DNA of 64,000 bases from Gammaproteobacteria bacterium. GTDB lineage: Bacteria; Pseudomonadota; Gammaproteobacteria; VBWC01. Positions 45,950 to 56,101 of the stretch are shown here, piece by piece (within the stretch, counting starts at the first letter, position 1; each line of letters starts with the position of its first letter). The translations under genes and the position numbers were made by a program. The notes below the pieces were generated by a model that saw only the letters and a program-made list of their open reading frames with translations, was not told where the DNA came from and made no database searches. Location of the stretch: NCBI GenBank assembly GCA_006218035.1, contig VBWC01000003.1:1-64000 (forward strand), written 5' to 3'.

Positions 45950-46534
45950 CTAGTGCAGCGACGGTCGCCATTCGAGCGATCCGAGAATCTCCGCTTCGGC
46001 CCGCGCAATCTCATGCAGGCGATCGTAGACGGTTTTTTCGTCAAAGCACTCAAGTGCCATGTCGACGAATACATGGCCGTGTTTAGCCTCGGCGGTCCAC
46101 AGGTCACGGTAGAAATGCTTGAGATGCGTGTCCTGCAGTGCTTCTGAAATCAGGCGGAAACGCTCCGCGCCACGGCATTCGATGATGGACGCGAGCAGCA
46201 ACTGGTCGAGAAAGCCCTCGTCCCGGCCATGGCGCCGCAGGGCCAGCAATTTATTCACGTAAGGATCGCGCGTATCCGGTATTGCCGCGACGCCGCGGCT
46301 TAACATGAGTTCGTAAACCTGACGAAAATGTTCGAGCTCTTCCTGGGCCAGCTCAATGAGACGCGGGATAATGCCGGTCCGGTCCGGATATTTGACGACC
46401 AGGCTCATGGCGAGCGCCGATGCCTTGCGTTCGCAGTTGGCGTGGTCCGCCAGGAACTCGTCAAAGTTGTTCAGAATGGTCGCTACCCATTCCGGCGCGG
46501 TCCGCACGTACAGGTCGATCGATTTTTTGGCCAC
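45950..46534 (-). CDS. miaE: tRNA-(ms2io6A)-hydroxylase
   Basis: MiaE is a di-iron monooxygenase that hydroxylates the isopentenyl group of ms2i6A37 in tRNA. The 194-residue product has the ferritin-like ligand pattern: ANCERKASALAMSLV, QEELEHFRQVYELM, IIECRGAERFRLISEAL and AEAKHGHVFVDMAL, giving two EXXH-type pairs. The start is GTG (complement of 46532-46534), matching the MAKKSIDLYV-type N-terminus. It stands alone. Confidence 0.9.
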   Translation of the reverse strand: MAKKSIDLYVRTAPEWVATILNNFDEFLADHANCERKASALAMSLVVKYPDRTGIIPRLIELAQEELEHFRQVYELMLSRGVAAIPDTRDPYVNKLLALRRHGRDEGFLDQLLLASIIECRGAERFRLISEALQDTHLKHFYRDLWTAEAKHGHVFVDMALECFDEKTVYDRLHEIARAEAEILGSLEWRPSLH

Positions 46535-47150: not shown

Positions 47151-47705
47151 GGGTCATTCTCCTGCGCAGACTGGTGTATATCGCTTGGGTATATTCTCTA
47201 TTGCCGATGACGTTTATGTCGAGTCTAATTAATAAGACAGCGCAACCGCGACATATACGTCAGGGGAGCCGTATTATTTTTTGCCCGCTGCGCATGCGAC
47301 GTCATTGCATGTGGTACGCAGGTTGCAGCTGGCTGGGCAAGGTCGCGCTGCAACCTCCCGCGCAACTGGGCGATCGCCGCCGGTTGCACAGCCGGCGGTA
47401 AAAAAGGCGAACAAGCCGGGCAAGCTCACCGCGACGGTATGAAATGGTCCCGGGAACATTGTGTGCTCCAGAACGAATCTAACCGCGATGCTGATATCGA
47501 TAACCGGCGGATCGGCTGCGCCGCCCAGCGCCATGTTTTGAGCGGTCATAATTCCGTAAAAACAGTTGGATAGTGGCGGGCCGCAGGTTTTATGCCGAGT
47601 CAGTTCATCAGTCCCGGCCCGGTTCCCTCTTCCCAGCGGCGCGCGGAAGGCGTACTTTCTTGGGCTTACGGTTTGTTGCTGGTACGAGGTTGGTTCGCAC
47701 GGGTA
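47151..47705. other. Long gap with inverted repeats before tpm
   Basis: This 555-base stretch carries no gene I can support. Two structures stand out: AGGTTGCAGC (47320-47329) paired with GCTGCAACCT (47347-47356), a perfect ten-base repeat, and CCGCCGG/CCGGCGG (about 47377-47398) followed by TAAAAAAGG. A minus-strand frame (complement 47274-47549, starting MTAQNMALGGAADPPVID) and an N-terminal extension of tpm from ATG 47592 are possible but match nothing I recognise. Confidence 0.4.
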
Positions 47706-48365
47706 ATGCGCGGCGATTTCTGGTTAAAGCGTTGGGAAGATAACGAGATACGGTTTCATCAGGATCGTATCAACCGTTATCTTGAGCGATTCTGGCCACG
47801 GCTGGGTCTCGGGCGCGGGGACCGTGTGTTCGTGCCGCTATGCGGCAAGAGCCAGGATTTGCTGTGGCTGCATGAACAGGGGCATCCGGTGCTGGGCATC
47901 GAGATCAGTCCGATCGCCGTCAAGGCCTTTTTTGCCGAGAATCATCTGGAGCCTGGCTGCCGCGTGGGACCGCGCTTTACCCGCTGGACCCATGGTTCGA
48001 CCGAATTGCTGTGCGGCGATTTTTTTGATCTCGGCGTGCTGGATACCCAGGACGTCGTCGCTGTCTATGATCGTGCCTCGCTGGTCGCCTTCCCGCATGC
48101 CGAGCGCCGGAATTATGTCCGCCATCTGACCTCGCTGTTAACCGATAACGTCCGCATGCTGCTGGTGACGACCGACTTTCCGTCGCACGAAATGGACGGC
48201 CCGCCGTTTTCTGTCGGTGAGGAAGAGGTGTGCGAGCTATACAAGGACGCGTTTAATGTGTGTCTCGTGCATGTCCAGAATGCCCTGGCCGACTATCCAC
48301 ACTTTCGCGAGCGCGGCTTGACCCGGTTCGAAGAGAAGGTTTACCTGTTGACCAGTAAGGACTGA
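47706..48365 (+). CDS. tpm: Thiopurine S-methyltransferase
   Basis: This SAM-dependent enzyme methylates thiols and, in bacteria, selenium and tellurium compounds. The 219-residue product starts MRGDFWLKRWEDNEIRFHQD and has RVFVPLCGKSQDLLWLHEQG, LGIEISPIAVKAFFAEN, LLCGDFFDL, VYDRASLVAFP and MDGPPFSVGEEEV, in the family order. ATG 47706 matches the usual N-terminus; an in-frame ATG at 47592 would add 38 residues without homology. The gene is followed by an SDR gene 18 bases later. Confidence 0.9.
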   Translation: MRGDFWLKRWEDNEIRFHQDRINRYLERFWPRLGLGRGDRVFVPLCGKSQDLLWLHEQGHPVLGIEISPIAVKAFFAENHLEPGCRVGPRFTRWTHGSTELLCGDFFDLGVLDTQDVVAVYDRASLVAFPHAERRNYVRHLTSLLTDNVRMLLVTTDFPSHEMDGPPFSVGEEEVCELYKDAFNVCLVHVQNALADYPHFRERGLTRFEEKVYLLTSKD

Positions 48366-49709: not shown

Positions 49710-49946
49710 GTGAATGAGCAGCGTTTTTATCTGAATATCCCGGCACATCGGTACCTTTCTTACTATCAGGGTGTCGCGAAGAATGTGATCGCGACCGCGC
49801 ATGACGGTACGACCGTGCAGTTTCCGGCCGAATCGCTCCGGCGCTTTCTGACGCATGACGGGGTGCGAGGCGAATTCCGCTTGTGTTACGACGATGCAAA
49901 CCGGCTGATCAGTATCGAAAGGCTGGGCGACACCGGCGCCGGGTAG
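49710..49946 (+). CDS. DUF2835 family protein
   Basis: The 78-residue product matches the DUF2835 pattern: RFYLNIPAHRYLSYYQGVAK, VQFPAESLRRFLTHDGVRG and FRLCYDDANRLISIERL. The family is small, gammaproteobacterial and of unknown function. The start is GTG at 49710. It converges on slt across an inverted repeat. Confidence 0.85.
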   Translation: MNEQRFYLNIPAHRYLSYYQGVAKNVIATAHDGTTVQFPAESLRRFLTHDGVRGEFRLCYDDANRLISIERLGDTGAG

Positions 49947-49977
49947 TGCTGCCGCCGAATCGGCGCCAGCAACCCTG

Positions 49978-50054
49978 GCAGCTTGTTGAAAAACTACTGC
50001 GCTTGCCATGACGGCGTTGCAAAAAGGCTCAAACTACGTTTTTCAACAAGCTGC
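49978..50054. repeat. 17-bp inverted repeat element between DUF2835 and slt
   Basis: GCAGCTTGTTGAAAAAC (49978-49994) and its exact reverse complement (50038-50054) enclose 43 bases that include TGCCATGACGGCGTTGCAAAAAGG. The right end includes the first base of the slt stop codon. The AAAAAC/GTTTTT edges could terminate transcription in both directions. TTTTTCAACAAGCTG-type sequences recur in the intergenic DNA of several gammaproteobacteria, so this may be a small transposable (MITE-like) element; only one copy is in the window. Confidence 0.6.
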
Positions 50055-51988
50055 TAGTCAGGCTGTTTGGTGATCGGCGGCATGCGGGTGCGCAACGGGA
50101 TGTGCGTTTGGCCCAGCCGCCGCTCGTAGATCGGTGCGTAGGCGAACACGTTCTGCAGGTAACCGCGCGTTTCATAGAACGGGATGGTTTCCACCCATAG
50201 ATCCACCGGCACCGGACCGGCAACCGGTAGCCAGCGGCGGACACGTTGATCGCCGGCGTTATACGCCGCCGTTGCCAGCACGGGGTGCCCGCCGAACCGG
50301 TCCAGCAGTTTGCGCAGGTAGGCGATGCCCAGGTTGATATTGGTGTCGGCATGCAGTAGCTGTGCAGTACTGGTCAGCCGAATGTCGACGGTCTTCGCCA
50401 GACGCCGCGCGGTTTCGGGCATCAGTTGCATCAGTCCCAGTGCGCCGGCCGGTGAGCGCACATCCTCGGTAAACGCGCTTTCCTGCCGAATGATGGCGAA
50501 CGCCAGCGCCGGATCCACCTTGCGGCGCTCGGCCTGCTCGAGTACCTGTGCACGGAAGGCAAGCGGGAATCGCAGCTCGAGGTCATCATCGTGCTTGGTG
50601 CCGGCGACAGCGAAGATTGCCCGATCATGCCACCCCCATTGCTGCGCCAGTTTCGCTGCGCGCTGGCGCTGGTCATCATCAAGGCCTCGCGTGGCGTGAT
50701 ACCACTCGCGACGTGCGTCGACTATGCGTTCGAGCAGTAAAAGCTCGCGCGCGCGGCGGATACCGGGGATATTCTCAATCGCGACGAGTCCATCGCGCGG
50801 GTAATCGAGCGGTTGTTCCTGAAACTGGTATGGAGTTTCCAGCCGGTCCGCGGCAAGAAAACCGTAGTAATGGCGTAGCTGCGCGAGATCGAGAAAAATC
50901 TCGTCGGCGATCTCCTGCTGGCCCAGCTCCGCCAGCGAGCGTGCGGTCCAGTAACGCCAGCGCGGTGACTGTTGTTCTTCCTGGGGCAGGCGGTCGATCC
51001 ACGCGAGAACCGCGTCCCAGTTGCGCGCGCCAAGTGCGGAGCGTATCCGCCATTCCCGGATATCGCGATCTGCTTTTTCAGGCGGGACGACTGCGAGCCA
51101 GCTCAATCCTTCCGGCCGTCCGGCAACCGCGATATAAAGCGCGATCTGGCTCTCGGCACTGTCGCGCTGTTCGTCGGTCAGCGTGTACTGGCGGCGGATC
51201 TTTTCCCAGGCGTCGAGCACCTCGTCCGGGTAGAGCCGGGCGTAACGTTTGACGCCATGTACGACGATTTCACCGGCGAAACGATTCTCGGCACTGATCA
51301 CGCCGCCGTGGGTCAACAGCTTCGGGTTCGCATCCACTTCGCGCCATTGCTTCGCCCAGCGCTGCTGGTTTGCCGGCAGCGAGCCCGCCAGATGACGTGC
51401 CACTTGCAGCTCGCGCACCTGCATGGCCAGCTGAATACGGCGCCACAGCAACTCTGTTGTGATAGCGCCCGATTCCTGCCACACCTGAAACAGCGGATCA
51501 CAGGCATCGGGCAGCGAGAAGGCCACCAGCCATAACTGTTCTATCCGGGCGAACGCCTCGGTTTTGCGGCCGGTACGGAGCAACGCGCGGCGCTGGTAAC
51601 ACTGTAGTGTCGCGTCGTCGCCAGCCTGATAGGCATTGAGAAACTGCTGCCATGCACCTTGCTGCGCAAGGCGCAGCAGCCAGCTGTAACGCAGGCGCGG
51701 TGCCAGCGGCGTGTCGGCGTATCGGGTCAGGAAGTCTGACAGCTCTTTATCCGTTGCTGTCGCCAGACGTGGACGCAGTTCGGCGTAGATGAGATACGGG
51801 TAAAGCGGATAATCGACCAGCCTTGCCAGCCGTTTCCGGAAACCCGGGTTGTCGCGCTGTGCCAGCGCCTGTTCTGCTGCCAGAAAATCGGCGCGCCGGG
51901 ACGCCAGATCCTTGCCTGGATCACTGAAAGCCGGCGCGTGCGCGAAAAGCAGCAGGCAAAACGTTACATTAGCGGCGGCAATGCGCAT
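50054..51988 (-). CDS. slt: Soluble lytic murein transglycosylase
   Basis: Slt cleaves peptidoglycan glycan strands with formation of 1,6-anhydro-muramic acid. From ATG 51988 the product is 644 residues: a signal peptide (MRIAAANVTFCLLLFAHAPA, cleaved about FS-DP), a long alpha-helical superhelix, and a C-terminal lysozyme-like domain with FAIIRQESAFTEDVRSPAGA (catalytic Glu503), GLMQLMPETARRLAK, NINLGIAYLRKLLDRFGG and AAYNAGDQRVRRW. The length matches Slt70 of E. coli (645). An in-frame GTG at 52021 would add 11 residues; neither start has a clear ribosome-binding site. Confidence 0.95.
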   Translation of the reverse strand: MRIAAANVTFCLLLFAHAPAFSDPGKDLASRRADFLAAEQALAQRDNPGFRKRLARLVDYPLYPYLIYAELRPRLATATDKELSDFLTRYADTPLAPRLRYSWLLRLAQQGAWQQFLNAYQAGDDATLQCYQRRALLRTGRKTEAFARIEQLWLVAFSLPDACDPLFQVWQESGAITTELLWRRIQLAMQVRELQVARHLAGSLPANQQRWAKQWREVDANPKLLTHGGVISAENRFAGEIVVHGVKRYARLYPDEVLDAWEKIRRQYTLTDEQRDSAESQIALYIAVAGRPEGLSWLAVVPPEKADRDIREWRIRSALGARNWDAVLAWIDRLPQEEQQSPRWRYWTARSLAELGQQEIADEIFLDLAQLRHYYGFLAADRLETPYQFQEQPLDYPRDGLVAIENIPGIRRARELLLLERIVDARREWYHATRGLDDDQRQRAAKLAQQWGWHDRAIFAVAGTKHDDDLELRFPLAFRAQVLEQAERRKVDPALAFAIIRQESAFTEDVRSPAGALGLMQLMPETARRLAKTVDIRLTSTAQLLHADTNINLGIAYLRKLLDRFGGHPVLATAAYNAGDQRVRRWLPVAGPVPVDLWVETIPFYETRGYLQNVFAYAPIYERRLGQTHIPLRTRMPPITKQPD

Positions 51989-52061
51989 AGCGTCGTGTAT
52001 GGAAAAACCGTGCCACCGCACCGAATGAAGGCAATGCTAAAGGGATCAATATGTGTCGACG

Positions 52062-56025: not shown

Positions 56026-56101
56026 TGGCGCTCCCTAGGGGACTCGAACCCCTGTTCCCGCCGTGAGAGGGCGGTGTCCTGGGCCACTAGACGAAGGGAG
56101 C
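56026..56101 (-). tRNA. tRNA-Glu (anticodon CUC)
   Basis: The minus strand reads a full cloverleaf. Acceptor GCTCCCT pairs with AGGGAGC, the discriminator is G, and CCA is encoded. The anticodon stem CCGCC/GGCGG closes loop CTCTCAC, giving anticodon CTC; the T arm is CAGGGGTTCGAGTCCCCT. E. coli tRNA-Glu differs in having TTC. It is 119 bases from the pcnB frame and divergent to it. Confidence 0.95.

Follow-up and report, generated by a model that had tools for sequence, protein, structure and literature searches.

The inverted repeat that touches the slt gene in the window (the whole stretch of 64,000 nucleotides that was analysed, from a gammaproteobacterium) was found to be very probably a MITE that was moved in trans by an IS5-family (DDE) transposase into a YTAR target, and the window copy is read as a 75-bp, internally shortened form of a 144-bp type; we give this reading as a whole a probability of about 0.92. 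We observed an insertion relative to an empty site in a sister species, target copies at its borders, ends that recur, unchanged or almost so, on insertion sequences of other genomes that code for a transposase, and covariation in the hairpin of its relatives. In the proposed mechanism, an IS5-family transposase would recognise the family ends CAGnnTGTTGAAAAA and insert the element at YTAR, duplicating four bases. The target CTAG would have contained the slt stop codon, so that the duplication left this codon intact, and the 75-bp form would have arisen from the 144-bp type by internal deletion. Full-length members contain a long imperfect hairpin between their ends, with compensating changes in the stem and constant bases in the internal loops, and this hairpin is common to elements with quite different ends. 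Taken as a whole, the interpretation in an earlier note on this DNA was partly supported.

An inverted-repeat scan of the window revealed exact 17-base arms (49978-49994 and 50038-50054) that enclose 43 bases, as the earlier note had described; when one mismatch was allowed, the arms extended to 20 nt (49975-49994/50038-50057, 95%). From the comparison with the other copies, the boundary of the element was set one base inward of the 17-base arms (Table 1). The outermost of the 17 pairs is thus formed by target bases, namely the G of the left CTGG opposite the C of the right CTAG. The element lies 32 bases past the DUF2835 stop codon and at the slt stop, and the two neighbouring genes are convergent. 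The contact of its right end with the slt stop, pointed out earlier, is exact: the codon (50056-50054 on the minus strand) is inside the right target copy. Folding z-scores against 200 shuffles were -4.70 for the plus strand and -3.12 for the minus strand, and TARCAGNNTGTTGAAAAA at up to two mismatches occurred at 61 sites in the 3.0-Mb source genome versus 2 for the reversed control. These results, together with a sister species without the element, confirmed that the inverted repeat at 49978-50054 is real and not due to chance. As in other MITEs, the elements are short (75-192 bp, below 500 bp), have terminal inverted repeats (16-bp arms in the window copy) and lack coding capacity; the ORFs of at least 80 aa crossing the window site are chance frames that enter from outside, and none is contained within the element.

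Table 1. Features of the element and of its surroundings in the window.
Feature	Position	Strand	Basis or remark
Left target copy CTGG	49975..49978	.	single CTAG in sister species, ...CAACCCCCTAGTCAGG
Element proper, 75 bp, 16-bp ends	49979-50053		comparison with other copies
Left terminal inverted repeat CAGCTTGTTGAAAAAC	49979..49994	+	same end elsewhere in genome
Residual interior	49995..50037	.	left half of conserved hairpin up to GGCTCAAA, joined to CTACG
Right terminal inverted repeat, minus-strand reading CAGCTTGTTGAAAAAC	50038..50053	-	
Right target copy CTAG	50054..50057	.	sequence and sister comparison
slt stop codon TAG, within right target copy	50054..50056	-	ORF 50054-52021
slt, soluble lytic transglycosylase	50054..52021	-	PF01464 E 3e-30, PF14718 E 3e-21
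DUF2835 gene, left neighbour, stop 49944-49946	49710..49946	+	PF11197 E 3.1e-26
MiaE-family gene	45950-46534		
Thiopurine methyltransferase-family gene	47592-48365		
tRNA	56029-56101		sole Rfam match in window at gathering scores

The source genome (G000; 3,013,730 bases in 62 contigs) was searched for further copies. Counting the 77-base unit, a check proposed in the earlier note, gave a mixed answer: the exact unit was present only once, as was the 75-bp form, but two siblings of 144 bp (C44:180269-180412) and 192 bp (C44:84596-84787) were found on the same contig as the window copy. A more distant relative bearing the same core was located at C35:159629-159768. As expected of a MITE, copies are present at several unrelated places: the further two-ended elements described below and, for the interior type of the window copy, two siblings and one divergent relative. 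Comparison with the two siblings revealed that the window copy consists of the outer parts of the 144-bp form minus 69 internal bases, which make up most of a hairpin. The junction letters CTCAAAC are common to the window copy and the 144-bp copy, which suggests the 144-bp type as the source of the window copy. The core, which had been called conserved-looking, is indeed conserved in the family, but most of it has been lost from the window copy.

Apart from the window copy, the source genome has 20 two-ended elements, 70-198 bp in length with target bases counted in for some; one 50-bp pair and two pairs longer than 500 bp are outside this count, and some end copies were unpaired. Judged by eye, the interiors comprised the present core, a consecutive-hairpin type of ~159 bp and, in two elements, another palindromic repeat. 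The ~159-bp type, with about five consecutive hairpins by eye, was observed at C44:235050-235208, C27:40221-40379, C31:43087-43245, C32:116315-116475 and C47:294244-294401; several other copies were internally shortened or contained runs of N, and one-ended or interrupted copies were found at C44:156252, C15:148999, C35:146556 and C27:34064 and at C35:159206 and C27:58846. The one-ended or interrupted copies of this type share two break points, one following ...GCCATTTTTCA and the other ...GCAAAAAA, which reflect either real truncation or assembly failure at the hairpin. At C27:14519-14664 and C1:131532-131691, the interior between the same ends is another palindromic repeat, whose arms resemble CTTCGACAGGCTCA and GAGC.TGTCGAAG. 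Additionally, the 192-bp copy holds a further hairpin, GTCGCTGCGGGCATCCTGCCCTCCCGCGAC, close relatives of which are repeated in two other genomes (G036 and G035) without the present ends.

The same-genus sister G001, in which slt is 97% identical, lacks all three contig-44 copies, and the corresponding sites are uninterrupted. The 192-bp copy has TTAG on both sides in the source genome versus a single TTAG in G001, the empty site for the window copy reads CAACCCCCTAGTCAGG with one CTAG, and that for the 144-bp copy reads TTTTTCCTAGGTGG. These empty sites indicated that each of the three copies is an insertion at a YTAR site. G001 contains four exact end-pattern matches, and a search of it with the core model returned no match. 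The left flank of the window copy has two C's fewer than the sister species, and its left target CTGG was probably altered from CTAG. The 144-bp sibling is flanked by the same imperfect pair, CTGG/CTAG; the right CTAG is intact in both copies and holds a stop codon in both (slt, and a frame at 180 kb), and this stop codon may protect the right target copy. Target duplication, proposed earlier as a check and expected of a MITE, was borne out in the wider set, as the flanking 4-mers were identical in 43 of 73 two-ended elements (mean of 14.5 and maximum of 24 in 2000 permutations), while the next 4-mers outward were identical in 0/73. In the remaining 30, the target copies are not identical, and the window copy too has an imperfect pair. 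Among the elements with a non-palindromic target (CTAA or TTAG) on the left and YTAR on the right (n=20), the right copy was a direct repeat in 14, an inverse repeat in 1 and a different sequence in 5.

The exact end pattern was found in 48 of 369 genomes of the class, with control counts of 0, in agreement with the earlier remark that such repeats are scattered in the class. From 30 of these 48 genomes, one end-pattern locus each was examined. In genome G262, we found an insertion sequence of ~1298 bp (1306 including both target copies) with the ends CAGGCTGTTGAAAA...TTTTCAACAGCCTG and a transposase ORF of 363 codons, which matched NF033581 with 267.6 bits (cut-off 140) and contained DUF772 and DDE_Tnp_1. 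Four copies of this insertion sequence are present in G262, identical across 360 queried residues, and their TTAA/TTAA flanks are clean in two copies and imperfect in the other two. An IS5 transposase is also located between closely similar ends in Thiolapillus brandeum pTBH10, where TTAG flanks both ends, and in Stutzerimonas stutzeri 95A6, where CTAC does; the latter also carries a core-bearing element with such ends. Thus, ends common to transposase-coding insertion sequences, as expected of an IS5-related MITE, occur in G262, S. stutzeri 95A6 and T. brandeum pTBH10. Together with the terminal repeats, the 4-bp target copies and the empty sites in the sister, this upheld the description of the element as MITE-like. 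From the shared ends, a transposase of this type probably moved the window element.

The transposase with matching ends that the earlier note had asked for was present in these three places but not in the source genome: no match to the G262-type IS5 transposase was found there with a query that does detect G262's own. Similarly, there was no match in 25 of 33 other genomes, including the end-rich G067, G163, G055 and G016, and the remaining 8 matched at E<=1e-10, several of them distantly. The exact end pattern occurs in 148 copies in G067 and in 112 copies in G163. Draft assemblies often lose insertion sequences, and the elements of the source genome may be orphans, or their insertion sequence may be missing from the draft. 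PF01609 was matched at three other places in the source genome, one of them an IS5-family remnant with different ends, of the GGAAACTCTG/GGAACCTCTG type, at C57:4956-5462. These PF01609 matches were rejected as mobilisers, as the largest has GGAA(A/C)CTCTG-type ends and the other two are short matches. Elements of the IS1182 type in three Pseudomonas genomes, a label inferred from ORF length and a weak match to the query, were also rejected, as only the inner TCTGTTGAAAAA of the end is in common. Five viral contigs carry an end, and no transposase-length pair at up to four mismatches was found in the stretches of them that were examined.

To describe the core beyond this genome, the pattern GCTCAAAATGCTCATTTAC...GTAAACTnCGCTTTTTCGC... 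was run on genome contigs, and at least 117 stretches contained it. Among the matches listed, many were from Pseudomonas, and others were from Azotobacter, Halomonas and relatives, Endozoicomonas, a Cycloclasticus MAG and several uncultured lineages. The core model R1 matched 71 of 369 class genomes at E<=1e-15 (hand count) and 156 of 369 at E<=1e-4. In a second draw of 398 genomes of the phylum, 120 matched at E<=1e-4, of which 74 were outside the class (hand count), and four outside-class genomes (G403, G424, G453 and G465) matched at E<=1e-15. The looser level fails to distinguish the class from neighbouring groups, so the strict level was used; weak matches are distant relatives or background. 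The E-values of R1 are rough, with up to 10 candidates scored per genome. When six loci with elements were compared with Rfam up to E 5, none matched. A core element of Pseudomonas was found in 15 plasmid records (14 Pseudomonas and 1 Halomonas) and matched no phage and no E. coli genome, and the 206-base stretch with the 192-bp copy matched no plasmid or phage record.

In the 54 model matches obtained from 74 searched loci (alignment A3, which was fitted to R1 and includes training members), 25 of the 28 hairpin pairs were changed on both sides in some sequence. Paired cells amounted to 95.4% versus 77.7% in shuffles, with 0 of 500 shuffles as high, and pairing fell to 38-48% in slid structures. 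The core was also present in nine of the 30 end-selected loci, in three of them weakly and in one in part. Loop columns 34, 48, 49, 50, 103, 105 and 112 were constant in all nine, five of which are also in the R1 training alignment; other loop columns vary (e.g. 104 and 114), and some paired columns are equally constant. As the loci of A2 and of the genome contigs were mostly picked by the exact core pattern, core constancy in them is circular, and we based it on pattern-free columns, the end-selected loci and A3.

The same core was found between different ends. Among 114 distinct core copies in the matches listed, 34 had CAGnnnGTTGAAAAA, 25 GGGCACCTCTAAAAA, 14 CAGGCTGTGTGAAAAC and 10 GGCTTnGTACGAAAAC and relatives, while 8 had four rarer kinds and 23 were unclassified; the end classes are expressions written by eye, and several of the 23 are visibly worn forms of the named kinds. 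The second kind (GGGCACCTCTAAAAA, the GGGCACCTCT kind) has 4-bp duplications of its own in 9 of 21 copies (permutation mean 0.83, maximum 5), whereas duplications of 3, 5 or 6 bp in the same register were not in excess. Its targets, for example TAAA, TTTT, GTAA and CATA, are not YTAR. Thus, the interior has been carried by at least two systems that differ in ends and in target preference. No partner of the GGGCACCTCTAAAAA ends was found, and three other end kinds offered too few copies (4, 1 and 2) for the duplication test.

The contact with a stop codon is largely accounted for by the target, as YTAR reads TAR (TAA or TAG) on either strand. Of the 151 YTAR sites in the window, 107 are inside predicted ORFs, 26 are between them and 18 are on their stop codons. 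A script placed 7 of the 21 elements of the source genome inside a predicted ORF and 14 outside, and a predicted stop was in the target for 10 of these 14 versus 18 of the 44 non-coding YTAR sites in the window. The script undercounts, as one of the target copies contains a stop in four of the seven "inside" elements (window slt, C44:180266, C27:14519 and C1:131532). The comparison, with these single cases read post hoc, is suggestive only. Target choice and gene avoidance go far to explain the slt contact without a role as terminator. The 14 elements outside ORFs lie in 5 convergent, 8 codirectional and 1 divergent gaps. For core-bearing elements in general (91 of the 114 in the matches listed, after removal of 16 located within ORFs and 7 at edges, with a simple ORF picker), convergent gaps were not enriched (19/91 versus 60/338 other gaps, Fisher p = 0.54), and divergent gaps were somewhat fewer (15/91 versus 89/338, p = 0.054). 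In codirectional gaps, 35 elements had the opposite and 22 the same orientation, which is not convincing as a strand bias.

These data bear on the proposal that the repeat ends two convergent transcripts, that is, that it is a bidirectional terminator common to DUF2835 and slt and a fixed part of their 3' ends. The window copy does lie between convergent genes, 32 bases from one stop and at the other, both of its strands fold well as RNA, and 5 of the 14 source-genome elements outside ORFs are in convergent gaps. However, the sister with the nearly identical slt has no such sequence, no stem-loop with a T run, the mark of an intrinsic terminator, was found at 49800-50250 (0 found, 0.5 expected), and the core-bearing relatives are free of convergent bias; the suggested check, whether copies lie at convergent gene ends, is answered by the same counts without a sign of such a bias. 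We consider a terminator highly improbable as the origin of the repeat. The other half of the earlier proposal, a REP-like element, would mean a REP/REPIN whose mobility depends on a REP-associated tyrosine transposase that works on single-stranded hairpins. REPs are tied to such a single-strand transposase, and a short, palindromic, intergenic repeat with paired inverted arms resembles them, but the 4-bp YTAR duplications are of the DDE type rather than the movement without duplication of a REPIN, and the ends are common to IS5-family insertion sequences. This origin is scarcely credible, and, judged by the target duplications, the REP-like label was not supported.

Compared with these, an artefact that concerns only the length has a greater chance, although it is still improbable: the insertion would be real, and a full-length hairpin element would have been collapsed to 75 bp by short reads. 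Runs of N inside other elements (C7:17156, C39:33311 and C47:35467) and the breaks of several one-ended copies at the same two places are compatible with it. In contrast, both ends of the window copy are intact and its flanks are continuous with both genes, and shortened two-ended copies are present in another interior type (C14 82 bp, C15 84 bp and C30 70 bp, target bases partly included), although they could share the same artefact. In the full-length members, covarying stems around constant loops are the trace expected from a recognised folded strand, and selection on such a strand is suggested by the alignments. Alternatively, the covariation may have arisen by mutation, with template switching within the palindrome copying one arm onto the other. 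Imperfect palindromes are corrected in this way, and all of these elements are palindromic; however, template switching should erase internal loops, and the seven loop columns listed above are constant in the nine end-selected core loci, an argument limited by the variation at 104 and 114, by the constancy of some paired columns and by the five loci in the training set. We regard template switching as unlikely, while leaving it a real share of the weight. Our tentative proposal, which we place a little short of even odds, is that the hairpin is a unit of selection of its own: a folded strand with fixed loops would be recognised by a host or transposon protein, would have been passed between transposase systems by exchange of terminal repeats and would have spread through a large part of the class, and the window copy would be a remnant without it.

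By itself, the window copy, a small and worn MITE within a stop codon, is nothing unusual, and the reading of YTAR as a stop codon on either strand is a simple reason why such elements touch stop codons. Less usual is that a single interior, in which stems covary and loop bases stay constant, recurs in several element types with their different ends, and that two of these types differ in target preference. MITE interiors are usually viewed as filler between transposase-specific ends; should selection act on this one, a functional, recognised structure would be carried by the short mobile palindromes of these bacteria. The shared core had no description in Rfam or in the open-access literature searched, where long result lists were covered in part and a description elsewhere is possible; the core sequence strings were in no open-access paper searched, and the short end strings gave nothing relevant among the matches listed.

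The closest published element is MITEPsy1 of Pseudomonas syringae pv. phaseolicola, which, according to its report (PMC3189936), is 100 nt long with 18-nt terminal repeats and a 4-nt duplication of CTAG or YTAA, is attributed to the IS5-family ISPsy2 and was reported to transpose; a homologue in P. stutzeri led its authors to suspect that other bacteria have similar sequences. MITEPsy1 is like the window family in size, 4-nt duplication and IS5-type partner, whereas its ends, as given there, are GGAAGGTCTGAAAAAGCC/GTATCCTCTGAAAAAGCC rather than CAGnnTGTTGAAAAA (PMC3189936). Among insertion sequences related to ISAzs10 (the NF033581 group), the members in G262 and T. brandeum pTBH10 agree with the window family in their YTAR copies and, fully or almost fully, in their ends, and ISAzs10 itself has CAGGCCGCGGAAAAA as a related end and is flanked by TTAG left and right; these code for a transposase, whereas the window element codes for nothing and has only the ends in common. 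R0, R2 and R178 of P. fluorescens are described in PMC2718517 as MITE-like intergenic palindromes with a tail-to-tail bias, and at their ends R0 and R2 match insertion sequences present in that strain. They differ from the present elements in size, and no tail-to-tail bias was found for the present core. REPs and REPINs are similar as short intergenic hairpin repeats, but the present elements have DDE-type target duplications. Overall, we regard the window element as a MITE of an established type, whereas the core with its exchanged ends is, in our view, a novel variation on that type.
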